From NCBI RefSeq assembly GCF_008180865.1, contig NZ_VTEX01000002.1:434001-498000 (forward strand): a stretch of 64,000 nt of DNA, given 5' to 3'. Position 1 is the stretch's first letter. Each line of letters starts with the position of its first letter. This DNA comes from Rossellomorea aquimaris. GTDB taxonomy: Bacteria; Bacillota; Bacilli; Bacillales; Bacillaceae_B. Shown piece after piece: positions 5,771-63,887 of this stretch. The notes beneath the pieces were generated by a model. That model was not told where the DNA came from, ran no database searches, and worked only from the letters and a program-made list of their open reading frames with translations. A program made the translations under genes and the position numbers.

Positions 5771-5798
5771 TTAGCATTCTCCTTTTTATTAGAAATGA

Positions 5799-7573: not shown

Positions 7574-7587
7574 GTAACACCAACCCT

Positions 7588-8610: not shown

Positions 8611-8644
8611 AGAAACACACTCCTTTTTCGTGGATTACACTTGA

Positions 8645-9313: not shown

Positions 9314-9335
9314 GTTATCTCTCCTTTGCACTTTC

Positions 9336-9364
9336 ATTATATGACATACTGTATCCCAGTTCAA
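9336..9364 (-). promoter_or_regulatory. Promoter of the gntR-TRAP-racemase operon
   Basis: On the minus strand TTGAAC (9359-9364) and TATAAT (9336-9341) are separated by 17 bases, with transcription starting near 9329 and the GntR ATG at 9313. Confidence 0.75.
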
Positions 9365-36477: not shown

Positions 36478-37458
36478 CTACTTCCCCATGATTGAATCCA
36501 TCACCCAGTTGGTTCGCGCACCAGAATCTCCAGTACTCGGACAACAAACGCCATCCTCGGTCAGCTCTCTTACAATAGTTTCAACAAGCGGCTGATGAAC
36601 ATGGAGGGGGTGTTCAAAACTCCATTGCTCTTTTCCTTCAACAGTCGTCAACGTGACTGGATCATCTCCAAAAGTAGAAAAGCTGATCTTCCCTTTACTT
36701 CCGACAATCTCATTCATGTCCACATCTTCAAAAGCCGTGAAACACCACTTTCCTATACCTTGAACGCCAGATTTGAATCGATATGTACCGGTCACAATAT
36801 CTTCTGCCTCATAATAGCCCGCTTGATTCGACGCAAACCCTTTTGCTTCTTGTATGGGGCCGATAAGAAAATCAAGAATGTCGAGAGTATGGCTGGCCAA
36901 ATCGAAGAATAATCCGCCACCAGCAACACCAGGCTGGACACGCCAAGGGAGGTCTTCTGAATCTTTCACATCGTCCCCTGCTTTTTGATACAGCGTCGAT
37001 GAGACAAAACGAACGTCTCCGATCGCCCCCTGATCCAGCAATTCTTTAATTTTCAAAAAGCGCTCTTGTCCCCGGAGGTAATAAGCTACATACAAAGGAA
37101 CACCAGCCTCTTTACAGGCAGCTACCATCTCACAGCATTCTTCGTAGTTACGAGCCATCGGCTTCTCAACATAAACCGGTTTCCCCGCAGCGGCTGCCTT
37201 CAGTGTATATTCCTTATGAGAGTCTGGCGGCGTAGCGATATAAACCGCATCTACCTTAGGATCGTTAATAAGAGCCTCCGCATCATCGTACCACTCCGGT
37301 ACCTGATGTCTTTCCGCATAATCCCTTGCCAGTTCACCCGTCCTCCGCATGACTGCAACAAGATCTGAGTTTTTAACCTTTTGAAAAGCAGGGCCACTTT
37401 TCTTTTCTGTCACATCTCCGCAGCCGATTATTCCCCATCGGACTTTTTCATATTGCAT
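36478..37458 (-). CDS. Gfo/Idh/MocA family oxidoreductase
   Basis: Start at ATG 37458 (MQYEKVRWGIIGCGDVTE), since AGGAGGGATCC precedes it. About 326 residues. The nucleotide-binding GIIGCG is at residues 9-14, and the catalytic-type VEKPMARNYEEC at about 95. The C-terminal half is the alpha/beta substrate domain. Such enzymes oxidise or reduce sugars and sugar acids with NAD(P). It is last in the sugar-acid operon, so it probably interconverts the imported acid or a keto derivative. Confidence 0.9.
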   Translation of the reverse strand: MQYEKVRWGIIGCGDVTEKKSGPAFQKVKNSDLVAVMRRTGELARDYAERHQVPEWYDDAEALINDPKVDAVYIATPPDSHKEYTLKAAAAGKPVYVEKPMARNYEECCEMVAACKEAGVPLYVAYYLRGQERFLKIKELLDQGAIGDVRFVSSTLYQKAGDDVKDSEDLPWRVQPGVAGGGLFFDLASHTLDILDFLIGPIQEAKGFASNQAGYYEAEDIVTGTYRFKSGVQGIGKWCFTAFEDVDMNEIVGSKGKISFSTFGDDPVTLTTVEGKEQWSFEHPLHVHQPLVETIVRELTEDGVCCPSTGDSGARTNWVMDSIMGK

Positions 37459-37498
37459 GTGTGGATCCCTCCTCTTGAATGTCATTTTTCTTTAAGAG

Positions 37499-37522
37499 CC
37501 TCACACCCAAAACGGGGTGAGG
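37499..37522 (-). other. Intercistronic hairpin
   Basis: CCTCACACCC pairs with GGGGTGAGG between the cupin and oxidoreductase genes. With little T-run after it, it may protect or partly stop the message. Confidence 0.5.
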
Positions 37523-37534
37523 ATGACCTCTACC

Positions 37535-37816
37535 TTATCCCTGCAGCAAATCCTTCCGAATCGGCGAGAACATATCCAAAATTACACATTCCTCAAGCAC
37601 TCTGACACGATGCTGGATACTCGATGGAATATACTGCGTGTCCCCTTGATTCAGGATCCTTTTTTCTCCACCGACTTCGAATTCCACTTGTCCTTTTTCA
37701 ATGAAGCTTAGTTGTTCTTCTGGATGTTGGTCGATGTCACCGACGAATCCTTCCGCCAGTTCCACCTTCACGAGCATCATGGATCCTTCGCTGCTTAATA
37801 TTTCCCTTTTCACCAT
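37535..37816 (-). CDS. KdgF-like cupin
   Basis: A 93-residue single-domain cupin. The ending VILDMFSPIRKDLL and the core QLSFIEKGQVEFEVGG, GDTQYIPSSIQHRV match KdgF, which turns 4,5-unsaturated uronates into the open 5-keto-4-deoxy form. The usual HxHxxxxQ ligand set reads DQHPEEQ, so the first His is Asp; the later His (IQHRV) is kept. It lies in an operon with KDG kinase and KDPG aldolase, which supports a uronate role. Confidence 0.75.
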   Translation of the reverse strand: MVKREILSSEGSMMLVKVELAEGFVGDIDQHPEEQLSFIEKGQVEFEVGGEKRILNQGDTQYIPSSIQHRVRVLEECVILDMFSPIRKDLLQG

Positions 37817-37865
37817 TACGGTCCACTCCCCTTTTCAAATCATTTCAGTCACACAAGCCCGATTG

Positions 37866-39155
37866 TCAGAATAGGCTTGGGTTTATTAATTTTGGAAGAT
37901 AGAATGCCACTTCCGGTAAAAATGCTACGAACAACAGGACGACGAGGACAATCAATATATACGGCATGACAGCAGAGAAGGACTTCTCGATGCTGAGATT
38001 GCCTATTTTCGCCGCCAGTAAGAGACATAACCCATAAGGTGGGGTGACGAGTCCGATCGCCAGAGTCATGACCACGATCAGTCCAAGGTGCACGGGTTCC
38101 ATTCCGAATAGATTGGCTGTCGGCAAGATGACCGGTACGAATAAGATCATGGCCGGAATTGCATCCATGAACGTACCAACGAACAGGAAGAATGCGATGA
38201 TGATCAGGATGAATACCCACTCTGCCCCAACGTTGTTCACGAAGAATTCCTGTGCCTTAACTGATAATTGATAGTAGCTCATCAGTTCACCAAGTGCACT
38301 TGCGGCAGCAAGGGCAAAGAGTGATAGCGAGCTTAGTGCCAGTGTATCTTTGATGATCTTTGGAAGATCGGAAAGTTTCAATGTCTTATAGAAAAACATA
38401 CAAATCAATAATGTATACAAGCAAGCAACGGCTGCGGCTTCAGTCGGGGTGAAAAACCCGGAGATGATTCCTCCTATAATGATGATCGGAGTGATCAGGG
38501 CAGGTACCGTTTCGTACACCAGTTTGAAAAATTCGCCGAAGGTCGCACGTTTCGATCTTGGATACCCCTTTTTTAAAGCCATGATATAAATGAAGAGCAT
38601 CATGCCAAGCCCAATCAGGACGCCGGGAACAATTCCTCCTAGGAATAACGCACCCACGGATGCATTCGTCAAACCTGCGAAAATAATCATCGGTATGCTC
38701 GGAGGGATGATTACACCGATTGTGGAAGAAGCTGCCGTTACACCTACAGCGGTTTCGGTATCATATCCCTGTTTCTTCATGTTCGGGATAAGAATTTTAC
38801 CGACCCCGGCAGTATCAGCCTGCGCCGCTCCTGACACCCCGGCAAATATCATCGAGACCAGGATGTTTGCGTGAGCAAGGCCCCCCCTGATTTGACCAAC
38901 CATCGTCAAGGAGAGGTCGATCAGCTTTTGTGAAATCTTCCCGTGGTTCATCAGGTTTGCAGCCAGGATGAATAACGGCACCGCCAGCAGGACGAACGAG
39001 TCGATCCCATTCAGCATCTTCATTGGGACCGTCACCTCTGGGATATAAGGAACCGTAAAAATACCGAGGAGGGCAATGATGCCGATGACAAAGGCAATCG
39101 GTACACCTATCAACATCAGAATGAGAAATAATCCAACCAACCCTATACCAATCAT
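37866..39155 (-). CDS. TRAP transporter large permease (DctM type)
   Basis: A 429-residue protein with about twelve membrane segments. GVPIAFVIGIIALLG opens it; GVSGAAQADTAGVGKILIPNM, IGVIIPPSIPMIIFAG and FFTPTEAAAVACL are DctM signatures. It overlaps the dctQ-like gene by four bases (ATGA). With DctQ and DctP it imports the operon's substrate, likely a uronate or related sugar acid, using the Na+ gradient. Confidence 0.93.
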   Translation of the reverse strand: MIGIGLVGLFLILMLIGVPIAFVIGIIALLGIFTVPYIPEVTVPMKMLNGIDSFVLLAVPLFILAANLMNHGKISQKLIDLSLTMVGQIRGGLAHANILVSMIFAGVSGAAQADTAGVGKILIPNMKKQGYDTETAVGVTAASSTIGVIIPPSIPMIIFAGLTNASVGALFLGGIVPGVLIGLGMMLFIYIMALKKGYPRSKRATFGEFFKLVYETVPALITPIIIIGGIISGFFTPTEAAAVACLYTLLICMFFYKTLKLSDLPKIIKDTLALSSLSLFALAAASALGELMSYYQLSVKAQEFFVNNVGAEWVFILIIIAFFLFVGTFMDAIPAMILFVPVILPTANLFGMEPVHLGLIVVMTLAIGLVTPPYGLCLLLAAKIGNLSIEKSFSAVMPYILIVLVVLLFVAFLPEVAFYLPKLINPSLF

Positions 39156-39628
39156 GATTGTGCCCCCCTTCCTTTAAGTGCTTTGATATTGTTGACTAAT
39201 TGACTCGCCGAGTAAATCATCATGGTTGCCCCCATGATTGGGATGGCAATCCACACATATCCCATTTTCAACTCAGGGATGGACGTCCAATTGTAGTTCC
39301 AGAAATTCTGTACGGCTTCAATTCCATAGTAGAAAAGAGCAAATGAGAATAATAAGATCACAGCATCAATCACGATCAGTAATGACACTTTCGATTTCCC
39401 TTCCAATTTCTCTACAAGGAAGTCGAAGCTGAAGTGTTCCCTTTTGCTCACCATGACGGATGCCCCCATAAAGACAGACCAAATGAAGGAATAGTTGGCT
39501 ACCTCCTCTGTCCATATGACAGATATGCCAAGATGTCTGGTGATGATTTGAACCATAATCGCTGCAAAAAAGATAAGTAAGAAAATAGCACCGATGGTCA
39601 TTTGGATTTTTTCAAGAGCCTTAATCAT
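39152..39628 (-). CDS. TRAP transporter small permease (DctQ type)
   Basis: Start at ATG 39628 (MIKALEKIQM) after GGGGGAAGACGATCAAG; the longer frame to 39691 runs through an intercistronic hairpin. About 158 residues with four hydrophobic segments and VIWTEEVANYSFIWSVFMGA, the WxEE-type motif. Expressed after the dctP-like gene and overlapping dctM. Confidence 0.9.
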   Translation of the reverse strand: MIKALEKIQMTIGAIFLLIFFAAIMVQIITRHLGISVIWTEEVANYSFIWSVFMGASVMVSKREHFSFDFLVEKLEGKSKVSLLIVIDAVILLFSFALFYYGIEAVQNFWNYNWTSIPELKMGYVWIAIPIMGATMMIYSASQLVNNIKALKGRGAQS

Positions 39629-39655
39629 CTTGATCGTCTTCCCCCTTTCACAATT

Positions 39656-39685
39656 AAAGGGAAGAACAGACCATCTCTTCCCTTT
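39656..39685 (-). other. Hairpin between dctP- and dctQ-like genes
   Basis: AAAGGGAAGA pairs with TCTTCCCTTT. Such a stem after a binding-protein gene usually stabilises the upstream message and lowers permease output. A similar stem follows the binding-protein gene of the fructan locus (60246-60278). Confidence 0.65.
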
Positions 39686-39697
39686 TACCAAGCGTTT

Positions 39698-40720
39698 TTA
39701 CTTAAGCTTTTTAACCTTTTCAAGCAGGTCTTCTGCTCCCATGTCTTTGGCTGCTTTCTCATGAAGAGGCTCTGCCAATTTAATGAATGGTTCACGGTCA
39801 ATTTCGTTCACTTTCGCCCCTTCATCGATGGCTTTTTGTTTGTACTCATCTTCCTGAGCATATACCGCTTCTCTTTCTGCTTTCACAGACGCCTCTGCTG
39901 CTTCGATGATGATATCCTGTTGTTCCTTCGAATAGGAATCAAATTTCTTTCCGTTCACCAGTAAGAAGCGTGTAGTGTAATCATGCGCTGTTTCAGTGAT
40001 GTATTTCCCGTTGTCCGTTTTATGATGGTTCTGCTGTACGAAGTATGGATACGAGTTTTCAGATGAATCGACGACATTTTGCTGAAGCGCCTGATACAGT
40101 TCCCCCCAAGCAATCGATGTCGGGATGGCCCCTACTTTCTTCCAATAATCCGCCACAACACCTGAGGTCTGCGTTCTAAACGTCATTCCCTTAATGTCAT
40201 CCATTTTTTCAAGCGGCTTTTTCCCGTAATAATGTCTCACACCGGCAGACCAGTATCCGATCAATTTAAAATCATTGTTGGACTTTTCGTTGATCAATTT
40301 CGCCATTTCTTCCCCGACTTCTCCGTCTACCGTCTTTTCCCAATGATCATAACTGTCAAAAAGGTAAGGAAGCGCCAATAGGTCGATTTCCTTGATTCCG
40401 GTCTGAGTCATGAAACCAGGTGATACGAGCACCACATCCGCTCCGCCAAGCTTCAGTTTTTCAACAAGTTCTGACTCTTCCGTTCCTATTGTCCCTGCGT
40501 GTACTTCGACTTCGATATCGCCGTTTGACTTACTTTCAGCCACTTCCTTGAATTTAACCAGCCCTGTTTGATATGGATTATCCGGTGATGTCTGGTTGTG
40601 TGCCGCTACAATCTTGATTTTCTTGCCTGCTTCTCCCCCGGCTTCGTCACTTCCGCATCCGGCCAGAATGCCGGAAACAGCCAACAATAATACAAATGAA
40701 ATTGAGAAAAATTTCTTCAT
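39698..40720 (-). CDS. TRAP substrate-binding lipoprotein (DctP type)
   Basis: A 340-residue protein with lipobox ILAGC. The mature domain has AAHNQTSPDNPYQTGLVKFK, MTFRTQTSGV (ligand-carboxylate Arg region) and IAWGELYQALQQNVVDSSEN. It belongs to the DctP/UxuP-like group that binds C4-dicarboxylates, uronates or other sugar acids. By context the ligand is a uronate or related acid fed into the KDG route. Confidence 0.92.
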   Translation of the reverse strand: MKKFFSISFVLLLAVSGILAGCGSDEAGGEAGKKIKIVAAHNQTSPDNPYQTGLVKFKEVAESKSNGDIEVEVHAGTIGTEESELVEKLKLGGADVVLVSPGFMTQTGIKEIDLLALPYLFDSYDHWEKTVDGEVGEEMAKLINEKSNNDFKLIGYWSAGVRHYYGKKPLEKMDDIKGMTFRTQTSGVVADYWKKVGAIPTSIAWGELYQALQQNVVDSSENSYPYFVQQNHHKTDNGKYITETAHDYTTRFLLVNGKKFDSYSKEQQDIIIEAAEASVKAEREAVYAQEDEYKQKAIDEGAKVNEIDREPFIKLAEPLHEKAAKDMGAEDLLEKVKKLK

Positions 40721-40742
40721 CCCTAGTTCCCCCTTATTATGA

Positions 40743-41393
40743 TTAAATGGTTTGAACAGCCTTTACCTTCTGAACGATTCGTGTGTATTCGCGGGCTTTC
40801 TGCGTCAAGCCCTGAAAATCTTCGTCATGTTGCAATTGTTTCGGATTTACCAGGTTCCCCCCTAGGCCCACTGCCAGAGCCCCGGCTTCCAGATATTCCG
40901 TAAGATTATCCATATTGATCCCCCCGGTCACCATCAATGGGACAGCTGGGAAAGGACCGTGAATGCTTTTAACATAGCCCGGTCCGAATGTATTTGCCGG
41001 AAATACCTTGATCATGTCCGCCCCGAGCTCATATGCCGTCAGGATTTCCGTCGGTGTCAGGGCTCCCGGTATACTTGCGATGCCGTAGCGTTTTGTCATC
41101 TTCACCGTGTCTGCATTTAATGTCGGGGAAACGATGAATTCACTCCCGGCCATGATCGCAGACCTTGCCGTTTCCGGATCGAGGACGGTGCCCGCACCAG
41201 TCAGGACCCTGCCGTCCATTTCTTCTCTTATGATTTCTATCAATCTTGTAAACTTCGGTGTCTCGGCCGTGATCTCAAGCACTTTCACTCCGCCCTCATA
41301 CAGGGCTTCTGCGATTGGCAGAATCGTCTGTGGAGTGGCTTCCCGGATGACAGCCACAAGGATTTCTTCTTTTATAAACTCTATCGGGTTCAC
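40743..41393 (-). CDS. kdgA: KDPG/KHG aldolase
   Basis: A GTG start at 41393 (MNPIEFIKEEI) is preferred: GGGAGGTG lies eight bases before it. About 216 residues. VKVLEITAETP holds the catalytic Glu and ELGADMIKVFPANTFGPGY the Schiff-base Lys of class I KDPG aldolases. It splits 2-keto-3-deoxy-6-phosphogluconate into pyruvate and glyceraldehyde 3-phosphate. It lies in the operon with a KDG-type kinase, making the last steps of uronate catabolism. Confidence 0.93.
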   Translation of the reverse strand: MNPIEFIKEEILVAVIREATPQTILPIAEALYEGGVKVLEITAETPKFTRLIEIIREEMDGRVLTGAGTVLDPETARSAIMAGSEFIVSPTLNADTVKMTKRYGIASIPGALTPTEILTAYELGADMIKVFPANTFGPGYVKSIHGPFPAVPLMVTGGINMDNLTEYLEAGALAVGLGGNLVNPKQLQHDEDFQGLTQKAREYTRIVQKVKAVQTI

Positions 41394-41409
41394 ATGATCA
41401 CCTCCCATT

Positions 41410-41958
41410 TCACTCTATATTCGCATGCCGTTTGGCCATGGTTTCATTCGTATCCCCATCTTCCAGTGTCCCGATGATGACCGCGTCGAGCACAAGATGG
41501 ACCGACTGATCAAACTGATTGCCAAGAGGTTGAATCGTAGCAGGCTCCTCCGCTCTCCGGTACTTCGTTGCTGCGGGTATGCCCATAATCCCGTCGCTGA
41601 TCGACGCAAGCTTTGATCCCCGGTTCGTGGTGACGAGGAACACGCTCGCCCCAATTTCTTTTGCTTTCGAGGCAAATTGGACAATGGCTCCTGTAGAGCC
41701 GGAGCCTGAAATGGCGATGAGAAGATCCCCTTCTTCCATGCTTGGTGTTATTGTTTCCCCGATGACGTAGACCTGAAAGCCTCCGTGCATCAGACGCATC
41801 GCAAAGGCTTTCCCCATCAACCCGGAACGTCCTTCACCGTAGACAAATATCCGTTTTGCTTTTTTCAACTGCTCTGAAAGATGGATCGCCTCTTCTTCCT
41901 CCACCTTTGATAAAACTTCTGAGATTTCATCGGCTACCGTTGTGATGATTGATTTCAT
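41410..41958 (-). CDS. hxlB: 6-phospho-3-hexuloisomerase-like SIS protein
   Basis: A 182-residue sugar isomerase (SIS) protein. VYGEGRSGLMGKAFAMRLMH, GETITPSMEEGDLLIAISGSGSTGAI (shortened) and the ending KRHANIE match HxlB of Bacillus, which turns 3-hexulose 6-phosphate into fructose 6-phosphate. It overlaps the hxlA-like gene by four bases. Its place between KDG kinase and KDPG aldolase genes is unusual, so the true substrate could be another 3-keto sugar phosphate. Confidence 0.88.
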   Translation of the reverse strand: MKSIITTVADEISEVLSKVEEEEAIHLSEQLKKAKRIFVYGEGRSGLMGKAFAMRLMHGGFQVYVIGETITPSMEEGDLLIAISGSGSTGAIVQFASKAKEIGASVFLVTTNRGSKLASISDGIMGIPAATKYRRAEEPATIQPLGNQFDQSVHLVLDAVIIGTLEDGDTNETMAKRHANIE

Positions 41959-42578
41959 TTATTGACCAGTCCTTTCATTGCCCTTGCAACTTCTGCAGGA
42001 TCGGCTGCCTTTGTGATAGCGCTGCCAATAATGACTGTATCGGGGTTATTTTCCACAATGCCAGGCAGTGTCTCGAATGTGATCCCCCCGGCTACGGCCG
42101 TCTCGAGTCCGTTAATCCCTTGTATCAAATCGAACAGGCTGCCGGTGCTTTCACCTGTTTCCTGCATGTCCTTCCCGATGTGCAGACTGACCATGGAAAC
42201 ACCAAGTTCCTGTAATTCCCGGACTCTCTTATTCTCTGAAACTCCCAATAGATCGATCATCACTCTCTTTCCACGTGAGGCTGCCACTTCGAGAGTATCG
42301 GTGATCGTCTTGTCGGCAGAGAAGGCCATGACGGTCGTGATATCTGCCCCGGCATCAAGTGCCTGTATCGTCTCATGCTTCCCGGCATCGCATGTTTTCA
42401 TATCTGCAACAATCGTTTTATCGGGATACTTCTCACGGGTTTCCTGGATGATCGTCATTCCATATTCCTTAATCACACCGGTTCCTACCTCAATCCAATC
42501 CACGTAAGGAGCCGTCTTCTCCAAAATCTGAAAGCATTCTTCCCTCGTAAGGCGGTCAAGCGCCACTTGTATATTCAT
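41955..42578 (-). CDS. hxlA: 3-hexulose-6-phosphate synthase-like protein
   Basis: A 207-residue TIM-barrel protein of the orotidine-phosphate-decarboxylase superfamily. VDWIEVGTGVIKEYG and VADMKTCDAGKHE carry the Glu and the Asp-x-Lys-x-x-Asp metal/catalytic set. MVSLHIGKDMQETGES follows; the residue after HIG is Lys, where HPS usually has Tyr and keto-gulonate-6-P decarboxylase has Arg. It may fix formaldehyde as in B. subtilis or decarboxylate a keto-acid phosphate. Paired with an HxlB-like isomerase. Confidence 0.85.
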   Translation of the reverse strand: MNIQVALDRLTREECFQILEKTAPYVDWIEVGTGVIKEYGMTIIQETREKYPDKTIVADMKTCDAGKHETIQALDAGADITTVMAFSADKTITDTLEVAASRGKRVMIDLLGVSENKRVRELQELGVSMVSLHIGKDMQETGESTGSLFDLIQGINGLETAVAGGITFETLPGIVENNPDTVIIGSAITKAADPAEVARAMKGLVNK

Positions 42579-42587
42579 CCCATCCCC

Positions 42588-43541
42588 CTATCTTTCCACT
42601 CGTTCTTTTTCACCCAAATGGACAAGGACATCTTCTAAATAAGGCAGCCCTTCATTATCACCCGTCACACTGACGACCATCGACCCGATGATGTTCGCAA
42701 AATGAAGCGCTTTGTCTAACGGCCAGTTCTGCAGGATCCCGTAAATGAAGCCTGCATCGAATCCGTCGCCTGCGCCTACCGTATCCACCACTTTCTTCGC
42801 TTTAACAGCAGGAGCTTCAACATATTCACCGTCCACATAACCAATTGAACCTTCTTCACCTTTCTTGATGGCGAGATGCGTGATGCCGAATTGCTTACAA
42901 TGCTCGATGATTTCATTGGTGTCTGTTGTTCCGAATAGCAGCTCGGCTTCCTCGATCCCTGTCACAAGGATGTCGACATATGGGAGGAAGCTTCTCAGCA
43001 CGTCCCTCGCTTCATCCTCACCCCACAGTTTCAGTCGGATATTCGGATCGCATGATATCATCACACCATGCTTTTTGGCTTCGATGATCGCGTGGCGGAT
43101 CAACTCGATATTTTTTGTTTTATCCACTGCAGGGAATACCCCTGTGATATGGAGGATCTTCGTGTTTTTCAAAAACTCTTCATTCAAGGTTTCCTTCGTC
43201 AACACCGTTGTAGGAGAACGGTCTCTGTAGTAGAAGGTCCGCACGCTCCCATCTCCCATGATTTCCTTGAAGTTCAGGGAAGTCGGATATCCATCCACCA
43301 GTTCCACTTCGGAAACATCCACTCCTTCACCGCGGACGGTGTTGAAGATATGCCTACCAAACTCATCATTCCCCAGACGGCTGATCCAACCAGTCTTTAA
43401 TCCAAGCCGTGCACAGCCAATAGCAAAGTTCAGCTCGGCTCCCCCGATTTTCCGTTCAAAAGAAGAGACAAACCGCATCGGGCCCGTCGATGACGGATCG
43501 AGAGTGATCATCGCATCGCCTATCGTCACTACATCATTCAT
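42588..43541 (-). CDS. kdgK: PfkB-family sugar kinase (KDG kinase-like)
   Basis: Start at ATG 43541 (MNDVVTIGDAM) with AAAGGGTG before it; an in-frame GTG at 43550 is less well placed. About 317 residues. RKIGGAELNFAIGCARLG, CDPNIRLKLWG and the catalytic VVDTVGAGDGFDAGF are ribokinase-family motifs. With the LacI gene and the KDPG aldolase it matches the Bacillus kdgRKA order, so 2-keto-3-deoxygluconate is the likely substrate. Confidence 0.88.
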   Translation of the reverse strand: MNDVVTIGDAMITLDPSSTGPMRFVSSFERKIGGAELNFAIGCARLGLKTGWISRLGNDEFGRHIFNTVRGEGVDVSEVELVDGYPTSLNFKEIMGDGSVRTFYYRDRSPTTVLTKETLNEEFLKNTKILHITGVFPAVDKTKNIELIRHAIIEAKKHGVMISCDPNIRLKLWGEDEARDVLRSFLPYVDILVTGIEEAELLFGTTDTNEIIEHCKQFGITHLAIKKGEEGSIGYVDGEYVEAPAVKAKKVVDTVGAGDGFDAGFIYGILQNWPLDKALHFANIIGSMVVSVTGDNEGLPYLEDVLVHLGEKERVER

Positions 43542-43559
43542 GGGTAACACCCTTTCTGT

Positions 43560-44561
43560 CTAACAAGATTCTCGTATGATTAACTCCGGATCAAAACGGA
43601 AAACCAAGCCCTCATCCTGATCCTCTTTTTTCTGGATTTTGTTTAATAAGAATTCCGCTGCTTTCTTCCCTATTTCAAAAGTAGGCTGAGCCACGATCGT
43701 CAATCCCGGTTCAAAAAATCCGGCAAAGGACACATCATCAATTCCAATGATGGCTAAGTCTTCAGGAATCCTTACATGATTTTCTTTGACATATTTCAAT
43801 ATTTCAATGAGCGTTAAATCATTTCCCGCAAGGATGGCTTCTGGGGGATCATCGAGGGATAGCAGATCGTGAACCCCTTCTCTAATCCTGTTCACTTCCA
43901 GGCTCTTAATATAGTCATCCCGGATGTCCAGACCATTGGCATTCATCGTGTTCTTATAGCCGTTGATCCGCTCCATCCTTGGCGTAACATTCCGGATCAC
44001 ATTCGTGATGATACCGATCTTCGTGTATCCCCTGTCGATAAAATGCTGGACCCCAATCCCAGATGCTTTCTCGTTATCAAGGAGCATAGATGGAATCGGT
44101 ACACCCGGCACCGTCCGGTCAACGAACACGATCGGATAGCCTTCCTTCAGCATCTCATTGTATAATGTCGCATTATCCCCAGTTGGCAGCAGGATGATGC
44201 CATCTACCTGTTTGGCGCGAAGCATTTCGATATACTTTCGCTCCTTGTCAGGATCATCATCTGCATTACAGACAATCGTGTGAAACTCCGCTTCCTGGCA
44301 TGTGTCTTCAATGGCCCGGATCACCTGAGTCGAGAACGTATGTAGAATATTTGCCACAATCACCCCGATCGTCGTCGTCGACTTCTGCTTGAGGCTTCTC
44401 GCCACAATATTTGGACGATACCCGAGCTCTTTGATGGATTCTTCTATTCGATTCTTCGTGCCTTCCCTCATATAATCAAAACGATTATTTAAGTACTGGG
44501 AAACGGTACTCTTAGATACATTCGCGTGCTGAGCAACATCAGCAATCGTTACTTTTTTCAT
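43560..44561 (-). CDS. kdgR: LacI family regulator (KdgR-like)
   Basis: Start at ATG 44561 (MKKVTIADVAQHANVSKSTV) after GGAGAG; the frame to 44582 adds seven unlikely residues. About 333 residues. HTH with VAQHANVSKSTVSQYLN, hinge helix PNIVARSLKQKST, then a periplasmic-binding-type domain (VDRTVPGVPIPSMLLDN, LAIIGIDDVSF). It leads the sugar-acid operon. Three tandem palindromes at its own promoter are its likely operators. Confidence 0.93.
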   Translation of the reverse strand: MKKVTIADVAQHANVSKSTVSQYLNNRFDYMREGTKNRIEESIKELGYRPNIVARSLKQKSTTTIGVIVANILHTFSTQVIRAIEDTCQEAEFHTIVCNADDDPDKERKYIEMLRAKQVDGIILLPTGDNATLYNEMLKEGYPIVFVDRTVPGVPIPSMLLDNEKASGIGVQHFIDRGYTKIGIITNVIRNVTPRMERINGYKNTMNANGLDIRDDYIKSLEVNRIREGVHDLLSLDDPPEAILAGNDLTLIEILKYVKENHVRIPEDLAIIGIDDVSFAGFFEPGLTIVAQPTFEIGKKAAEFLLNKIQKKEDQDEGLVFRFDPELIIRESC

Positions 44562-44586
44562 TCCATTCTCTCCAACTTTCATTTCC

Positions 44587-44624
44587 TAAACCGATTTACT
44601 AAACCGGTTTACTAAATCGATTTA
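44587..44624 (-). promoter_or_regulatory. Three tandem 12-bp operators, 13-bp period
   Basis: TAAACCGATTTA (44587-44598), TAAACCGGTTTA (44600-44611) and TAAATCGATTTA (44613-44624). The second and third are perfect palindromes with a central CG, as LacI-family sites need. They start at the predicted transcription start of the kdgR-like gene. Confidence 0.82.
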
Positions 44625-57749: not shown

Positions 57750-58712
57750 TCACCATTTAGAGGTCCGTCCCTCTAATTCCCTAATCGCGCTGATCGCCCC
57801 TATTTTTGTACAAACAGTTGCCCCCACGCGATTGCTGGTTGAAATGACGTTTTTTAATTCTTCGAAATCCTTCAGGAGGGCTTTCGGATCCTGATAGTGA
57901 TTGAATTGATGCAGTGTCGCCCCAACAAATGCATCGCCTGCCCCCGTTGAATCAATGGAATGAACGGGAATGCTTGGGACGATACACGATTCTTTTCCAT
58001 TTGAAACCAGTGTTCCATCCTTCCCAAGGGTGACGGCTACGGTATTTGCTCCCAGTCTATGAAAATGTTCGACTCCATCTGATAGATGGGCGAATCCAGA
58101 AATGATCTTACATTCCTCTTCGCTTACTTTGACGAAGTCTGCTTGACTGATGCACTGCTCCGCCACCTCAATGAAGTCCCTCTCTCTCCCCTTCCATAAA
58201 TCGCTTCGGAAGTTCGGGTCAAAGGAGACGAATTTCCCTGCTTCCTTGGCCATTTGGATGAAGGATACGTACGCGGATTTAAAGGGATCATCCAGTAAGG
58301 CGGTGGCAGATCCAAAGTGAATGATGGAAGATTCCCTCCAGCTGCTTTGATGAAGGTCTTCCTTGTTCAGATGGGCATCCGCCCCTCGATTAAACACGAA
58401 ATCTCTTTCCCCATCTTCTTTCAATGATACAAACGCCAGAGTTGTAGGATGATGCTCATCAAGAAGAATGGAAGAATCATCAATGGTAAGATCCTTCATG
58501 GTGTTTTTCAGGAAATGGCCGAACGGGTCATTTCCTACCTTGCTCAGGAATCTGGCGCGCCCCCCAAGTGTGGTAATGGTGGCACACACATTCGCAGGAG
58601 CCCCTCCTGCTTGCTTTGAGAAATGTTGGCCATGTGCCAGGTCTTTATTGATATCGGTACAAAAGAAATCGATGAGCAGTTCACCGATGCATAAAATCGA
58701 TGGGTCATTCAT
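57750..58712 (-). CDS. Fructokinase (PfkB family)
   Basis: A 320-residue kinase. ELLIDFFCTDINKDL, KQAGGAPANVCATI (substrate Gly-Gly) and SIDSTGAGDAFVGATLHQF (catalytic Asp) are ribokinase-family motifs, in the form of Bacillus-type fructokinases. It phosphorylates fructose set free by the GH32 enzyme, whose gene overlaps its start by eight bases. Its last residues EGRTSKW are read from an F4 half-palindrome (57757-57775). Confidence 0.92.
   Translation of the reverse strand: MNDPSILCIGELLIDFFCTDINKDLAHGQHFSKQAGGAPANVCATITTLGGRARFLSKVGNDPFGHFLKNTMKDLTIDDSSILLDEHHPTTLAFVSLKEDGERDFVFNRGADAHLNKEDLHQSSWRESSIIHFGSATALLDDPFKSAYVSFIQMAKEAGKFVSFDPNFRSDLWKGRERDFIEVAEQCISQADFVKVSEEECKIISGFAHLSDGVEHFHRLGANTVAVTLGKDGTLVSNGKESCIVPSIPVHSIDSTGAGDAFVGATLHQFNHYQDPKALLKDFEELKNVISTSNRVGATVCTKIGAISAIRELEGRTSKW
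57757..57775. repeat. F4 half palindrome inside the fructokinase 3' end
   Basis: AGAGGTCCGTCCCTCT, matching the right arm of the two F4 copies at 55 kb; it encodes the end of the protein. Confidence 0.7.
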
Positions 58713-60222
58713 GCTCTCGTACTTCCTTTCCCCAGATAGAGGAAAGCTCGGTAACCATGAGCTCTTCTACCTTGGCACCACCTCCAAGGGCAGTGAGGGA
58801 AAGGGTGTGATTCGTTCCCTGTGGGAAGATCAGGTTGGTTAATACTCCCCCTCCTCCCTGTGCGAATACCTCTAAGGAAGATGAGTCCAGGAATATATGA
58901 AGGTTGAGCGTATCGTCCATTAATTCCACAGGACATTCGGAAATTCCCGGAAATGAATCCGAAAACCCGTGTTCTCCTGACTGAGTCCTGTCGATCGATA
59001 ACACTTGGGTGATTCGATTGTACCGGATACTCGTTTTCTCATCGGATGAATGGTGGATAGTCAGCCTGAACTCCTTTGCCTCTTCCAACGTTACAGCCAG
59101 ATTCACTTCCATTAATTCATGATTTACATCCATTGAGTACGCTTCATCCGTTAGCCCTATTGCCTTGATGACCTTTGATTCTTTTCTGATTCTATTCATT
59201 TCAGATACAGGTTTTTGTAAAAGCTGAACCCCATCTGGAGTAGATATCAAGGTCATTTCTCTAGGCAATGTCATGGCTCCTCTCCACGTTTCAGTCGGAA
59301 CCTGGTTTGCATATCTCCAGTTGTTCATCCATCCAAGATAGATTCGTCTTCCGTCCTTTTCAGGGATATCGGACCAGCTCACTCCCGCATAATTGTCCCT
59401 TCCGTGATCGAGCCAGAGGATGGTGTCTGCATTATGATGGTTGATAAACGTCTTGCCGTCGAAGTCCCCAACAAAGTACTGGGTCCTTGAACCTTCCTTG
59501 AAATCGGGGTTGTCACCAATGCTCACCAGCATCACCCATTTCACATGATCGGGATTTCCGTCAACCATGAGTGGAAACAGATCCGGGCATTCCCATACTC
59601 CGGAATGGGAGCCTTCGTCCTGACCGAATTCACTGGCAAACTCCCAGTCGATCAAGTTAGGGGACGTATATATGGTAATCGTCTGACCCGTCGCCAGCAC
59701 CATGACCCAACGTTCAGATTCCTCATGCCAAAACACTTTGGGATCCCGGTAATCGGTAATATCCTCATCTGACAGGACAGGATTTCCCTCGTATTTCTCC
59801 CACGTCCTGCCATGATCAAGACTAAAGGCTAGACTTTGTCTCTGTCTTGGACGATCGGAATCCGGATATGAGTCCGCACTTGTATAAATGGCGACCAGCC
59901 CGCCATTCCCCTTTTCAAAGAAACCCGATGTATTCTTCCAATCCACCACGGCGCTTCCAGAGAAAATAGCACCGTGCTCGTCAGGATAAAGAGCGATCGG
60001 CAGCTCCTCCCAATGGATCAAATCCCGACTAACCGCATGCCCCCAGTGCATCGGTCCCCACGTGGTTCCTTGTGGATGATATTGAAAGAAGAGATGATAT
60101 TCCCCTTCGAAATAGACCATCCCATTCGGATCATTCAGCCACTTTTCCTTCGGGGAAAAGTGAAATTGCGGACGATAGGTTTCTGAATAAAGGCTCATTT
60201 TTTCTTGATAATGATTCGTCAT
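58705..60222 (-). CDS. GH32 fructan/sucrose hydrolase
   Basis: Start at ATG 60222 (MTNHYQEKMSLY) with AAGGAG before it. About 505 residues, no signal peptide, so cytoplasmic. The five-blade domain has WLNDPNGMVYFEG (nucleophile Asp), ITDYRDPKVFWH (transition-state Asp) and SGVWECPDLFPL (acid/base Glu). The C-terminal beta-sandwich follows from about residue 345. It cleaves sucrose or short fructans brought in by the ABC importer of the same operon. Confidence 0.93.
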   Translation of the reverse strand: MTNHYQEKMSLYSETYRPQFHFSPKEKWLNDPNGMVYFEGEYHLFFQYHPQGTTWGPMHWGHAVSRDLIHWEELPIALYPDEHGAIFSGSAVVDWKNTSGFFEKGNGGLVAIYTSADSYPDSDRPRQRQSLAFSLDHGRTWEKYEGNPVLSDEDITDYRDPKVFWHEESERWVMVLATGQTITIYTSPNLIDWEFASEFGQDEGSHSGVWECPDLFPLMVDGNPDHVKWVMLVSIGDNPDFKEGSRTQYFVGDFDGKTFINHHNADTILWLDHGRDNYAGVSWSDIPEKDGRRIYLGWMNNWRYANQVPTETWRGAMTLPREMTLISTPDGVQLLQKPVSEMNRIRKESKVIKAIGLTDEAYSMDVNHELMEVNLAVTLEEAKEFRLTIHHSSDEKTSIRYNRITQVLSIDRTQSGEHGFSDSFPGISECPVELMDDTLNLHIFLDSSSLEVFAQGGGGVLTNLIFPQGTNHTLSLTALGGGAKVEELMVTELSSIWGKEVREHE

Positions 60223-60245
60223 AAGGATTCTCCTTTGCATTCGAA

Positions 60246-60278
60246 AGGCTGCACGATTGCCTGGGCAAGGTACAGCCT
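60246..60278 (-). other. Hairpin between binding-protein and GH32 genes
   Basis: AGGCTG pairs with CAGCCT and inside it TTGCC with GGCAA. Likely protects the binding-protein message. Compare 39656-39685. Confidence 0.6.
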
Positions 60279-60286
60279 GAATTTAA

Positions 60287-61900
60287 TTATGATTGGTTAC
60301 GGTCATATCCATCCTGCTTTATTTTCAGCCACTCCTGTAACCCGAGGCGATCGAGTTGTTTCAAGTAATCCGCCCATTCTTCATCGGCTTTCCCGTTGGT
60401 GATCCATTCTGCCTTTTTACGCTTCACATAAGCAAGCAGATCGGTCTCGATCTTCGAAAGCTTATCTAACTCCTCAAGGGAGAAGAATACTTTTGGATAG
60501 ATGTTATCCGCCTTCATATCCGGTACCATGACATCCTTCATGAGCCCCAGTCTCCAGGCAGCATCATCCGGTTTCGTCGTCACGGCTCCATAGTATTCGT
60601 CCAAGATTGCCAGTGGACCGCCGACGGATGTCTTTTCCCTGAGCTCAACAGGAGCCGTTCCTTCTAATGGAAGGTGTTTTAATGAATTGCTTGCACTATC
60701 CATTTCGAAGATGTTTTGCTGTTTGTCATCCCCATATGTTCCCCAGTTATTTTGAACCGATTGAAGCGGATTATAGAATTGATCGATCCACTTCGCCGTC
60801 AGTTCAAGGTTCTCGTTCGCACTCGTGATGACCATTTTGTTCCGGTCAAATCCCATACCGTTCGTTCTCGCCACATTCTTCGTTCCATCAGGGCCTTCAA
60901 GGGCTGGCATGAGGTCATATTGATCGTTCATACCCGTGATGTTGGCTTTATCCCATGTGAAGTACATGCCGTAACGTCCTTCTTTCCCTTTCGACAGGTA
61001 GGTATTCCAATCCTGTTCAAAGGCTTCTACGTCAATCAAATCTTCTTTATATAATTCATTTAAGTAATTGATGGCAGCCTTATACCCTTCGTCGGCTGCC
61101 GTCAGCTTCACTTCACCGTCATTGGTGACGACCGTGTGATCCCAGTTCTCACCGAGTCCGAATGAACCGAACAAGAAGGACACATCTTCACCTCCATGGT
61201 TGATGATGAAGGACATCGGGATTTCATCTGCCTCACCATTCCCGTTTGGATCCTGAGTCTTGAATGCTTTCAGGACTTCTTTAAGTTCATCTGTTGTTTT
61301 CGGCATTTCAAGCCCCAGTTTATTCAGCCATTCGACGTTGATCCATGGGAAGTCATCAACGGAGTGAATGCTTTCCTTTCCTGAACCAAGCTCTTCAATC
61401 CAAGGGAAGGAATAAATATGCCCATCCGGTGCCGTCATCATCGAGCGATATTCAGGCGCATCTTCCAACACCTTTTTCAGATTGGGCATATGCTCATCAA
61501 TCAGATCCTCAACAGGAACGATCGCTCCATCCTTCGCAAGCTTCAATAGCTCATAGTCACTGTATCCCGCATTCATGATCGCGTCTGGAAGCTCGCCGCT
61601 CGCGACAGCCAGATTCCGCTTTTCATTGAAGGTTTCCCCCGCTGTATAATTGGTCCAGTCGATCTTCACTCCCGTTTCTTCCTGGAGCCTTTTGAAGATC
61701 AGCTTTTCATTTGGATCATCCGGAGCAAGTGGTGAGCTGGATGTCATCATCTTAAGCGTCACCTGTTCCTCTAACGGAAACTTTACATTTTCCAGTTCAT
61801 AATTCTCAGAAGAAGCATTTTCACTGTTGTTGCTGCACCCGGCTGCAAGAAGCATGCCTGACATCAGAAGTACCGACATTGTCTTCGTCTTTTTCCCCAT
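60287..61900 (-). CDS. ABC sugar-binding lipoprotein (LplA type)
   Basis: A 537-residue protein with lipobox LLAAGC. NEKLIFKRLQEETGVKIDWTN, NLAVASGELPDAIM and TSANENLELTAKWIDQFY are typical of the large LplA-like binding proteins. The length is usual for this group. It captures the oligosaccharide (by context sucrose or short fructans) for the LplB/LplC-like permeases encoded just upstream. Confidence 0.92.
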   Translation of the reverse strand: MGKKTKTMSVLLMSGMLLAAGCSNNSENASSENYELENVKFPLEEQVTLKMMTSSSPLAPDDPNEKLIFKRLQEETGVKIDWTNYTAGETFNEKRNLAVASGELPDAIMNAGYSDYELLKLAKDGAIVPVEDLIDEHMPNLKKVLEDAPEYRSMMTAPDGHIYSFPWIEELGSGKESIHSVDDFPWINVEWLNKLGLEMPKTTDELKEVLKAFKTQDPNGNGEADEIPMSFIINHGGEDVSFLFGSFGLGENWDHTVVTNDGEVKLTAADEGYKAAINYLNELYKEDLIDVEAFEQDWNTYLSKGKEGRYGMYFTWDKANITGMNDQYDLMPALEGPDGTKNVARTNGMGFDRNKMVITSANENLELTAKWIDQFYNPLQSVQNNWGTYGDDKQQNIFEMDSASNSLKHLPLEGTAPVELREKTSVGGPLAILDEYYGAVTTKPDDAAWRLGLMKDVMVPDMKADNIYPKVFFSLEELDKLSKIETDLLAYVKRKKAEWITNGKADEEWADYLKQLDRLGLQEWLKIKQDGYDRNQS

Positions 61901-61928
61901 TGTTAAACCCCCATTGATAAAATATAGA

Positions 61929-62807
61929 TTATTTTAAAGATCCCACCATAACACCTTTTTCAAAGTATTTCTGGAAGAATGGATACATAATGATCAGCGG
62001 CAAGCTTGCTAATACGATGGATGAATACTTGATCATCTCTGAAATTCTTTGGAGTTCCGCAGCAGCCTGCTGGTCAGCGATCATTCCCGGCTGCACCTCA
62101 TTCTGGATGAGGATCGATCGCAGGACGAGCTGTAACGGGTACAAATCCCGGTCTTCAAGGTAGATCATCGCATCGAAATATGAATTCCATTGTGCGATGA
62201 ACGCATAGAGTGCGATGACAAAGATGATCGGCTTTGACAACGGAAACACGATGTTCAAGAAGATCTTGAACTCCGATGCCCCGTCGATCCTTGCTGCTTC
62301 CTTCAACTCATTCGGAATCGATTTGAAGTAAGTTCTTGCAAGAATAATGAACCAAACGTTGATGGCATTGGGAAGGATGATCGCCCAAATCGTGTTCAGC
62401 ATCCCTAAGTCCTTCACCACCATATACGTCGGGATCAACCCCCCGTTGAAGAACATCGTGATGAGAAAGAACACCATGATGAACTTTCGTCCGACAAGCC
62501 CTTCAGCCGAGAGGGAATAGCCGGCAAAGATGCAGACACTCACGGTGATGAGCGTGAATCCGACAGAATAGAGAATCGAGTTGATGAATCCTTTGACGAT
62601 GGTACCGTCCTCGAAGATCCGTTTATAACCCTCGAGTGTCCAATCCGAACCGCTGATGAGGAATCCTTTTTTCACCAGAACATTCGGCTCAAGAACCGAG
62701 GATAGTAGCACGTATATCAAAGGGAACAGAACAATGATCACGATTCCCCCAAGCAGGATTTTGTTAATGAAAAGAATGAGTTTATCACTCCTGGTGTATT
62801 GGTACAC
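61929..62807 (-). CDS. ABC sugar permease (LplC type)
   Basis: A 292-residue protein starting with GTG 62807, with GGGGGAAACGAG before it. Six membrane segments. The EAA loop is ELKEAARIDGASEFKIFLNIVFPLSKPI (shortened) near residue 185, and it ends QKYFEKGVMVGSLK, the LplC signature. Forms the pore with the LplB-like subunit. Confidence 0.93.
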   Translation of the reverse strand: MYQYTRSDKLILFINKILLGGIVIIVLFPLIYVLLSSVLEPNVLVKKGFLISGSDWTLEGYKRIFEDGTIVKGFINSILYSVGFTLITVSVCIFAGYSLSAEGLVGRKFIMVFFLITMFFNGGLIPTYMVVKDLGMLNTIWAIILPNAINVWFIILARTYFKSIPNELKEAARIDGASEFKIFLNIVFPLSKPIIFVIALYAFIAQWNSYFDAMIYLEDRDLYPLQLVLRSILIQNEVQPGMIADQQAAAELQRISEMIKYSSIVLASLPLIIMYPFFQKYFEKGVMVGSLK

Positions 62808-62822
62808 CTCGTTTCCCCCTTT

Positions 62823-63788
62823 CTATAAAAGACCTTCGCCTTCGTTTAATTTCTTGACCACACGGTTTACGAAAACCAATAAGATGACATTGATGACGGC
62901 ATTGAACAACCCTACTGCCGTGGCGAATGAATAGTCACCTGCCTGCAGCCCCCGCTTGTATACATAGGTTGAAATGATTTCCGAGGTTGGAAGGTTCATA
63001 GAAGTCTGTAACAGATAGGCTTTCTCAAATCCAATCGCCATGATGCCTCCTGCAGCCAGGATGAACAGGACCGCCATTACAGGCTTCAGCGTCGGAAGAT
63101 CGATATGCCGGATGCGTTGCAGAAGGGATGCCCCATCTATGGTTGCTGCATCGTGAAGCTGGGGATCCACATTGGCGAGTGCCGCCACATAAATGATCGA
63201 TGCCCACCCCGCGCCCTGCCAAACTCCTGACCAGATATAGATGCTTCTGAAGGCATCAGGATCAGACATGAATGAAATCGGCTTATCCGTAAAAACCGAC
63301 AGCATCGCATTAATCGGTCCTGTAGGTGATAGGAAGAGAAAGATCATCCCGGAGATGACGACGACTGAGATAAAGTGTGGTGCATAAAGGATGAGTTGAA
63401 TATTCTTCTTCACCCCTGCTTTCCGGAGCTGATTCAGCATCAGTGCAAGGATGATCGGGATCGGAAACCCGATCAGAAGCTCGAAGGAACTTAATTTCAG
63501 AGTATTGACCAGGATATCCATGAAATTCGGAGACGATAAAAAGTCCGTAAAGTGCTTGAACCCCACCCATTCACTTCCATTGATCCCCCTGATGGGACTG
63601 AAATCCTTAAATGCGATGGATGCCCCATACATGGGAACATACTTGAAAATGATCGTAAGAATGATGGCAGGTGCAAGAAACAAATAGAGAATATAGTTTT
63701 TCTTCATATAATGGAGCTTGGTTTTGAGCTTCGAATTTTTCTTTGTTTCCGTTATGACTGGTGTATCTGCCTTGGCAAGTTCTTGCAA
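62823..63788 (-). CDS. ABC sugar permease (LplB type)
   Basis: A TTG start at 63788 (MQELAKADTPVIT) is preferred: AAAGGGGG lies eight bases before it, and the size (about 321 residues) fits LplB. Another TTG at 63830 has GGGGAGG but would add unusual residues. ILYLFLAPAIILTIIFKYVP opens it; EAA loop VDPQLHDAATIDGASLLQRI; it ends VNRVVKKLNEGEGLL. No ATPase gene is in the operon, so a shared MsmX-type ATPase is implied. Confidence 0.9.
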   Translation of the reverse strand: MQELAKADTPVITETKKNSKLKTKLHYMKKNYILYLFLAPAIILTIIFKYVPMYGASIAFKDFSPIRGINGSEWVGFKHFTDFLSSPNFMDILVNTLKLSSFELLIGFPIPIILALMLNQLRKAGVKKNIQLILYAPHFISVVVISGMIFLFLSPTGPINAMLSVFTDKPISFMSDPDAFRSIYIWSGVWQGAGWASIIYVAALANVDPQLHDAATIDGASLLQRIRHIDLPTLKPVMAVLFILAAGGIMAIGFEKAYLLQTSMNLPTSEIISTYVYKRGLQAGDYSFATAVGLFNAVINVILLVFVNRVVKKLNEGEGLL

Positions 63789-63887
63789 TCTTTTGACCCC
63801 CTTTATATAAATCACTTTGTTCAGAAACAATGATCCTCCCCATTTAGGTGAGGATGTCCGTTGAGTTCACTTTACTAGAATCCCAGA

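Follow-up and report, generated by a model that had tools for sequence, protein, structure and literature searches.

The genome of Rossellomorea aquimaris (NCBI RefSeq assembly GCF_008180865.1) carries, within the 64,000-nucleotide stretch of contig NZ_VTEX01000002.1 analysed here (positions 434,001 to 498,000; hereafter the window), a ten-gene unit on the minus strand (44582 to 36478) in which homologues of the formaldehyde-fixing enzymes HxlA (3-hexulose-6-phosphate synthase, HPS) and HxlB (phosphohexuloisomerase, PHI) are placed among genes for the use of sugar acids. Sequence and gene context suggest that this is a sugar-acid operon whose HxlB and HxlA have probably changed substrate, and there is good reason to believe that the pair would act as an in-line isomerase and decarboxylase. 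It is also fairly probable that the operon represents a widespread, undescribed pathway of Bacillota, by which 2-keto sugar acids would be converted, cofactor-free, to pentose phosphate and CO2 by descendants of enzymes of the ribulose monophosphate (RuMP) pathway. The evidence consists of the conservation of the operon, the occurrence of HxlA-HxlB in the place of kguD in 2-ketogluconate (kgu) operons, residues specific to the clade, a LacI subfamily and operator common to this and some kgu-type operons, and an association with RpiA; from these we infer every reaction and substrate proposed below.

The ten genes encode, in order, a LacI-family regulator, a PfkB kinase, HxlA, HxlB, a 2-keto-3-deoxy-6-phosphogluconate (KDPG) aldolase, the DctP, DctQ and DctM components of a tripartite ATP-independent periplasmic (TRAP) transporter, a small cupin and a Gfo/Idh oxidoreductase. 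This order, the common strand and the short gaps, all given in the original prediction, are confirmed in the window sequence: intergenic gaps are at most about 50 bases, and 4-base overlaps are found at HxlA/HxlB and DctQ/DctM. When one genome per species was scanned with six HxlA peptide patterns, 110 relatives were confirmed, and the best 80 of them were retained. All 80 loci (two of which, L022 and L061, end at contig ends) have HxlA next to a PfkB kinase or to TRAP genes of the same kind, mostly with the larger gene set. As such a scan favours close relatives, searches covering 101 relatives, 398 genomes from the same class and 299 from the same phylum were added, and 72 regions were read, a non-random choice from the upper parts of the lists plus some canonical ones. 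The 142 loci classified by gene context comprise 94 with TRAP genes, 15 with a KguT-type transporter of the major facilitator superfamily, seven with an SLC13 transporter, seven with a kinase only (some of them at contig ends), 13 with HxlR, five with none of these, and the UlaD reference.

Near the 123 sugar-acid loci we found HxlB 115 times, a PfkB kinase 110 times, LacI 109 times, KDPG aldolase (KdgA) 78 times and RpiA 26 times; these counts refer to the same strand within 11 kb, with neighbours labelled against a chosen reference set and some stretches cut by their own ends. What varies least among these loci is the combination of HxlA, HxlB and a carboxylate transporter. The original description of a 2-keto-3-deoxygluconate (KDG) operon with inserted hxlAB therefore has the relation the wrong way round, given the counts for HxlB and KdgA. 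It had also considered that the neighbourhood might be unique to this strain; the genome-neighbourhood search it proposed shows instead that the gene set recurs in related genomes. The closest named relatives are from Rossellomorea. Other arrangements include LacI-HxlB-KdgA-DctPQM-RpiA-kinase-HxlA, LacI-DctPQM-kinase-HxlA-HxlB (without KdgA) and a second operon type, LacI-kinase-HxlB-Ldh2-DctPQM-ZnADH-KdgA-UxuA-mannonate oxidoreductase-HxlA. One locus from another class of the same phylum (L240, 5850-8027) exhibits a KguK-like kinase, an HxlA with Arg9 and Lys136 and an HxlB with Asp150 and His154, so that the sugar-acid HxlAB pair extends beyond the class of the window. A record titled Chryseobacterium sp. 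ISL-80 (L073) has an operon with the gene order of those of Bacillus sp. ISL-37 and ISL-41; a mistaken name or a mixed assembly is the probable cause.

In Pseudomonas, according to an excerpt of a published report (PMC11678583), KguK yields 2-keto-6-phosphogluconate, which KguD then reduces to 6-phosphogluconate. The annotated Klebsiella reference operon encodes PtxS, KguE, a 2-ketogluconate kinase, a tartrate transporter (in the KguT position) and a 2-ketogluconate 6-phosphate reductase. In four of our loci (L114 to L117), HxlA-HxlB occur with a KguE-like TIM-barrel protein, a KguK-like kinase and a KguT-like transporter. Among Bacilli, 15 loci combine a KguT-like transporter with HxlA-HxlB, with a kinase near 11 and a KguE-like gene near six of them; all seven SLC13 loci (Lactobacillales-type) carry genes for a KguE-like protein, SLC13, kinase, HxlA and HxlB, and two Lactobacillales plasmids carry those for a KguE-like protein, a transporter, a kinase, a HUMPS protein, HxlB and a KDPG aldolase. 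No KguD-like gene is found inside the KguT-type or SLC13 HxlAB operons, and just two were found near the 123 loci (same strand, within 11 kb), about 1.4 kb (L024) and about 6 kb (L055) upstream of the operon. In these sister-subclade kgu operons, HxlB and HxlA occupy the place of the reductase kguD. Support for the idea, already present in the original prediction, that an HPS-like enzyme decarboxylates a keto-acid phosphate as a new branch in the use of sugar acids comes from this swap, from the clade residues and from RpiA. The sister loci (e.g. L114-L116) combine a KguK-clade kinase with a KguT-type or SLC13 transporter; the window operon has its own kinase clade and a TRAP transporter, and possesses another kgu trait, a LacI regulator with a AAACCGGTTT-type operator (three sites before LacI).

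These putative operator sites are three tandem palindromes TAAAYCGRTTTA, 13 bases apart (minus strand, 44587-44598, 44600-44611 and 44613-44624), between the -10 box and the start of LacI. No other exact site exists in the window; the whole genome contains five, three of them at this operon, and the same pattern written backwards occurs twice. An exact site lies ahead of LacI in 72 of 88 TRAP loci and in all three kinase-only loci; in eight site-less TRAP loci, LacI is at the very start of the available stretch, which does not include its upstream region. Of the seven LacI genes in kgu-type loci, not one has the site, which is found before kguE in L114, L116, L174 and L175 and before HxlA in L114, L174, L175 and L176; the remaining KguT-type loci have no exact site. 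The LacI proteins of L114, L116, L117, L169, L174-L176 and L182 are 43-50% identical to that of the window, VSKSTVSQ being common to all, and those of L115, L167 and L171 are 34-35% identical to it. In an excerpt of PMC11678583, the PtxS site is given as 5'-TGAAACCGGTTTCA-3' and the PtxS effector as 2-ketogluconate. The resemblance of AAACCGGTTT to TGAAACCGGTTTCA is weak when taken alone, because many LacI-type operators look alike.

HxlA (41955..42578, minus strand; TIGR03128) and the SIS-domain protein HxlB (41410..41958, minus strand; TIGR03127) belong to a distinct clade, by which we predict them to be a 3-keto-6-phosphohexonate decarboxylase (clade residues Arg9, Lys37 and Lys136, and tree) and a 2-keto/3-keto-6-phosphohexonate isomerase (Asp150 and His154). 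Residues were counted by gene context with each unique sequence taken once; as related sequences are not independent, the counts measure consistency and not probability. HxlA position 9 is Arg in all 120 scorable sugar-acid sequences (one further sequence has a gap) and Leu in all 18 canonical ones; at position 136, Lys is found in 116 of 121 sugar-acid sequences and Tyr in all 18 canonical ones. In HxlB, all 115 sugar-acid sequences have Asp at position 150 and His at position 154; the 18 canonical ones all have Glu at the former, and at the latter 17 have Leu and one has Gln. The window proteins lack the HxlR-linked residues (Leu9 and Tyr136; Glu150) and exhibit Arg9, Lys136 and Asp150. Solved HPS relatives have Leu/Leu (3ajx), Leu/Ile (9lj9) and Glu/Thr (3f4w) at positions 9/136, that is neither Arg nor Lys; since they also lack Tyr136, this residue is not universal in HPS. 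The catalytic residues D8, E30, D59, K61, D64 and H133 are kept, the exceptions being L181, where D8 falls in a gap, and one KguT-type locus in which Arg replaces H133.

Position 136 of HxlA aligns with Arg139 of 3-keto-L-gulonate-6-phosphate decarboxylase (KGPDC), for which the mutant in PDB entries 1xbx and 1xbz has Val, by their titles one of three changes (E112D/R139V/T169A); 1xbx holds D-ribulose-5-phosphate, again by title. In the structural models (predicted local distance difference test, pLDDT, 92.8 for HxlA and 85.4 for HxlB), residues 9 and 136 of HxlA come after strands 1 and 6, respectively, both at the barrel mouth, and HxlB residues 150 and 154 are one turn apart in helix 145-166. 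A quick HxlA tree of 84 rows was rooted with UlaD and SgbH as outgroup; its support values come from a short search and some of its rows are long. The 63 sugar-acid rows (34 of the 94 TRAP loci, 14 of the 15 KguT-type, seven SLC13, seven kinase-only and L240) are all on one side of a branch with an approximate likelihood-ratio support (SH-aLRT) of 95, apart from the 18 canonical rows, and contain a kgu subclade (support 98) and a TRAP subclade (92).

The proposed reactions are argued from known chemistry. The compound 2-keto-6-phosphogluconate is fructose-6-phosphate with a carboxylate in place of the C1 hydroxymethyl group. HxlB in its parent reaction interconverts fructose-6-phosphate and 3-hexulose-6-phosphate, which HPS splits into formaldehyde and the enediolate of ribulose-5-phosphate, and KGPDC performs the equivalent decarboxylation on 3-keto-L-gulonate-6-phosphate. 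Loss of CO2 from 3-keto-6-phosphogluconate would yield the same enediolate as in HPS. In the route we propose, the TRAP system would import a keto sugar acid of six carbons, with 2-keto-D-gluconate as the likeliest candidate, and the PfkB kinase would phosphorylate it at O6 to 2-keto-6-phosphogluconate; HxlB would shift the ketone from C2 to C3, and HxlA would decarboxylate the resulting beta-keto acid, 3-keto-6-phosphogluconate, to ribulose-5-phosphate and CO2 through the ribulose-5-phosphate enediolate. RpiA, where present (it is not in the window operon), would feed the product into the pentose phosphate pathway. Such a route would contain no redox step and dispense with the NAD(P)H-dependent KguD reaction. 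The chances that 2-ketogluconate is the TRAP substrate appear to us somewhat better than even, on the strength of its kinship with the kgu branch. Among the matches listed in the open-licence literature, none links hxlA/hxlB to 2-ketogluconate or to a sugar-acid TRAP operon, which does not imply absence from print.

Several observations weigh against a change of substrate. Both window proteins exceed the curated cut-offs of the classical RuMP families (HxlA, 259 bits, cut-off 200; HxlB, 234 bits, cut-off 160). In fold, the HxlA model best matches structures that bear the name HPS (3f4w and 3ajx), although such a match does not separate HPS from KGPDC function. Five HxlA sequences (L184, L190, L193, L195 and L198) have Ile or Val instead of Lys136; this residue was rejected as a perfect marker, Arg9 with HxlB Asp150/His154 being a better one. 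RpiA alone does not separate production of ribulose-5-phosphate from its use and would serve formaldehyde fixation too; moreover, it is missing from the window operon, and the L037 operon carries Gnd, a gene consistent with a classical RuMP cycle too. The family scores, RpiA in 26 loci, Gnd and the conserved general catalytic residues of HUMPS proteins would all be in keeping with a capture by HxlA and HxlB of formaldehyde freed in the breakdown of sugar acids (e.g. a methylated uronate), with RpiA or Gnd supplying ribulose-5-phosphate.

We consider such capture quite improbable. The window genome (4.74 Mb, 17 contigs) encodes three HxlA proteins, that of the operon and two at 33-34% identity. 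One of the two other HxlAB pairs (L124, contig C11, 3868-8429) is a canonical HxlA-HxlB opposite zwf (TIGR00871) and an NAD-type gnd (TIGR00872), likely a dissimilatory RuMP set; in another genome of the genus (L125), glucose-6-phosphate isomerase follows zwf and gnd. An HxlR-like gene is adjacent to the other canonical pair (L123) and about 4 kb from the L124 pair. These contexts indicate that the window genome already has a classical formaldehyde module outside this operon. HxlR-like genes, counted within 11 kb on either strand as canonical HxlR is mostly divergent, are near 16 of 18 canonical loci but only one of 123 sugar-acid loci (L168, 50% identity), and none is within 11 kb of the window HxlA. 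Furthermore, the residues at HxlA position 9 (one gap) and HxlB position 150 differ without exception, the pair stands in the kguD position of kgu operons, and no formaldehyde-releasing enzyme was noticed among recurrent neighbours, although no search aimed at such genes was made. In view of the canonical pairs elsewhere, the scarcity of HxlR, the residues and the kguD position, formaldehyde detoxification was rejected as the main function, and the formaldehyde-release alternative offered in the original prediction is not supported.

The kinase (42588..43550, minus strand; PF00294), a predicted 2-keto(-3-deoxy)-hexonate 6-kinase, raises another objection. A kinase tree separates three groups: the TRAP-operon kinases including that of the window (support 98), a KguK group with Klebsiella KguK (100), with which the kinases of HxlA-bearing kgu-type operons cluster, and a small group (83) located directly before KdgA in L023, L045 and L185 and away from any KdgA in L037. 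The TRAP-clade kinases are thus outside the KguK clade, and 79 of 86 exhibit the motif RxxSP instead of R[KR]x[ST]A; accordingly their substrate may differ. The tree also led us to reject the view that the window kinase is simply an orthologue of KguK. At 13 of the 123 loci no kinase gene was found nearby; of these, L183, L187, L194 and L200 are cut on that side. Seven operons (L168, L172, L173, L186, L189, L058 and L031) carry regulator, transporter, HxlA and HxlB with no kinase recognised nearby; their kinase must sit elsewhere or differ.

The differences of kinase and transporter from KguK and KguT would suit the same chemistry on another keto-hexonate, either a 2-ketogluconate epimer or a hexonate that Ldh2, Gfo or alcohol dehydrogenase (ADH) enzymes convert to a 2- or 3-keto acid by oxidation, with HxlA still a decarboxylase. 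The operons of the second type, with Ldh2, Zn-ADH, UxuA and mannonate oxidoreductase, point the same way, as does the closest solved chain to the window DctP, 4x8r, whose ligand we take to be glucuronate. The LacI subfamily and operator common to some kgu-type operons argue for 2-ketogluconate instead, and RpiA in 26 loci points to D-ribulose-5-phosphate, a product that needs the D-erythro C4-C5 configuration of 2-keto-D-gluconate or its C3 epimer. Another keto-hexonate is on balance rather unlikely. The original prediction had the oxidoreductase and kinase making the keto-acid phosphate; this is not a general mechanism, since Gfo/Idh genes (at least 40% identity, same strand, within 11 kb) occur at three of 123 loci, the window among them.

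The KDPG/KHG aldolase (40743..41408, minus strand; TIGR01182, 185 bits, cut-off 156) has to be reconciled with the proposed decarboxylation route. KdgA accompanies the majority of loci, including that of the window, whose aldolase is the sole TIGR01182 match in its genome, and 37 of 39 tested genomes with such HxlAB loci have a KDPG aldolase. Among solved structures the window kinase is closest to the KDG kinase 1v19; it scores 218 and 115 against the KDG kinase models (cut-off 400 for both), while the aldolase passes its own. The frequency of KdgA, the single aldolase of the genome and the closeness to 1v19 would fit a plain KDG operon of kinase and KDPG aldolase, with HxlAB a passenger or general stress pair. 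We regard this as most improbable, because HxlAB is kept at the 45 of 123 loci where no KDPG aldolase was found nearby, and has its own conserved residues. It is also kept, with the kinase, in two genomes (G427 and G461) with no TIGR01182 match anywhere; this is a weak test, as both are 96-98% complete drafts from one genus and nearly all other genomes have the enzyme.

In the decarboxylation route, the aldolase would serve a side branch for KDG-6-phosphate. An excerpt of a published study (PMC6651773) states that the 2-ketogluconate kinase of C. necator also takes KDG (kcat/KM 7,370 versus 16,770, about 44%) and that KDG kinases accept 2-ketogluconate. As kinases of this kind can take both acids, one kinase could feed both branches. 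The operons L023, L045 and L185 possess two kinases, the TRAP-clade one beside HxlA and the other directly before KdgA, which suggests two branches. By reading of the sequence, a DapA/KDG-aldolase-like protein (L023, 16932-17846) ends one of these two-kinase operons; it may be an additional dehydratase or aldolase that acts on some related acid. No RpiA match is found in the window operon, in the window genome or in the control genome of B. subtilis; RpiA in such operons is therefore probably operon-specific and points to ribulose-5-phosphate.

The remaining features of the unit, all on the minus strand, are as follows. A promoter-like sequence TTGTAA-17-TATAAT (44658-44630) and, after the Gfo gene, a terminator-like hairpin of 13 pairs (36458-36426) flank the ten genes; both come from a sequence scan in which such sites are near chance frequency. 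The -35 box overlaps TTGTAAAGCGCTTTCA (44658-44643), which, by the consensus we assume, resembles a CcpA cre site. LacI (43560..44582; PF00356/PF13377) reaches no NCBIfam cut-off; its reading frame opens at 44582, and the second possible start, 44561, where the original prediction ended the unit, is the probable one. The solute-binding protein DctP (39698..40720; PF03480) is followed by DctQ (39152..39691; PF04290), whose frame opens with TTG and for which an internal ATG about 63 bases further in is the likelier start, and by the large permease DctM (37866..39155; TIGR00786, 392 bits). The small cupin of 93 amino acids (37535..37816; PF07883, Cupin_2), with relatives in 27 of the 94 TRAP loci including the window, matches no NCBIfam model, so that its earlier label "KdgF-like" is not borne out; it perhaps has a role in ring opening. 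The Gfo/Idh/MocA oxidoreductase (36478..37485; PF01408/PF22725), an accessory member, has relatives of 82% identity in L114 and 60% in L051.

Elsewhere on the minus strand of the window, reading of the open reading frames suggests a second TRAP operon (4763-9364) with a proline-racemase-like protein, DctM, DctQ, DctP and a GntR-type regulator, and a cluster (57750-63830) with a PfkB fructokinase-like protein, a sucrose/levan hydrolase-like protein, an ABC solute-binding protein and two permeases. In other genomes, HxlB-like proteins were seen with no HxlA recognised nearby (L248, L249, L238, L239 and L242); by reading, those of L248 and L249 adjoin ribulose-phosphate 3-epimerase-like proteins, and L248 also has transaldolase and transketolase.

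If the proposed pathway is correct, it would constitute a third fate of 2-ketogluconate, beside reduction before or after phosphorylation, and a possible cofactor-free path from glucose-derived acids to pentose phosphates. It would account for hxlAB outside methylotrophy, and many genes annotated as formaldehyde-fixing hxlA/hxlB would be misnamed; HxlA Arg9 with HxlB Asp150/His154 would provide a simple sequence test separating two functions under one name. An HPS-like ancestor would have taken on a reaction of the KGPDC kind; structures of the KGPDC mutant with ribulose-5-phosphate make this chemically plausible.

Among known systems, the HxlA-HxlB (HPS/PHI) pair of the RuMP pathway has homologous enzymes in the same order with the same general catalytic residues; the window pair differs by its separate clade, by Arg9/Lys136 and Asp150/His154, and by a sugar-acid operon in place of HxlR. 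The Bacillus kdgRKAT operon has a LacI regulator, a PfkB kinase and a KDPG aldolase in common with the window operon, but the latter possesses TRAP and HxlAB, and KdgA is not constant among its relatives.

The KGPDCs UlaD and SgbH of ascorbate and diketogulonate use would catalyse the same type of reaction as proposed here, the decarboxylation of a beta-keto-hexonate-6-phosphate to a pentulose-5-phosphate. They exhibit a basic residue at the equivalent position (Arg139 versus Lys136 in the window), and genes for TRAP, kinase and decarboxylase occur together in the yia operon of E. coli as well. However, window HxlA is only 30-31% identical to them, scores below the UlaD/SgbH models (NF009832, 115.5 bits, cut-off 250; NF009831, 98.7 bits, cut-off 294) and exhibits Asp109 and Ala163 where KGPDC has Glu112 and Thr169. 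The KGPDC product has the L-xylulose form, in contrast to the D-ribulose form proposed for the window, and the E. coli operons have no HxlB partner.

Finally, the kgu operon of Pseudomonas and Klebsiella (ptxS, kguE-kguK-kguT-kguD) has in common a 2-ketogluconate-type kinase, a LacI regulator and the operator core AAACCGGTTT, and the sister HxlAB operons retain the kinase, a KguT-like transporter and often kguE. The window operon differs from it in having TRAP and no kguE, and KguD, leading to 6-phosphogluconate, is replaced by HxlB and HxlA, for which the proposed product is ribulose-5-phosphate.

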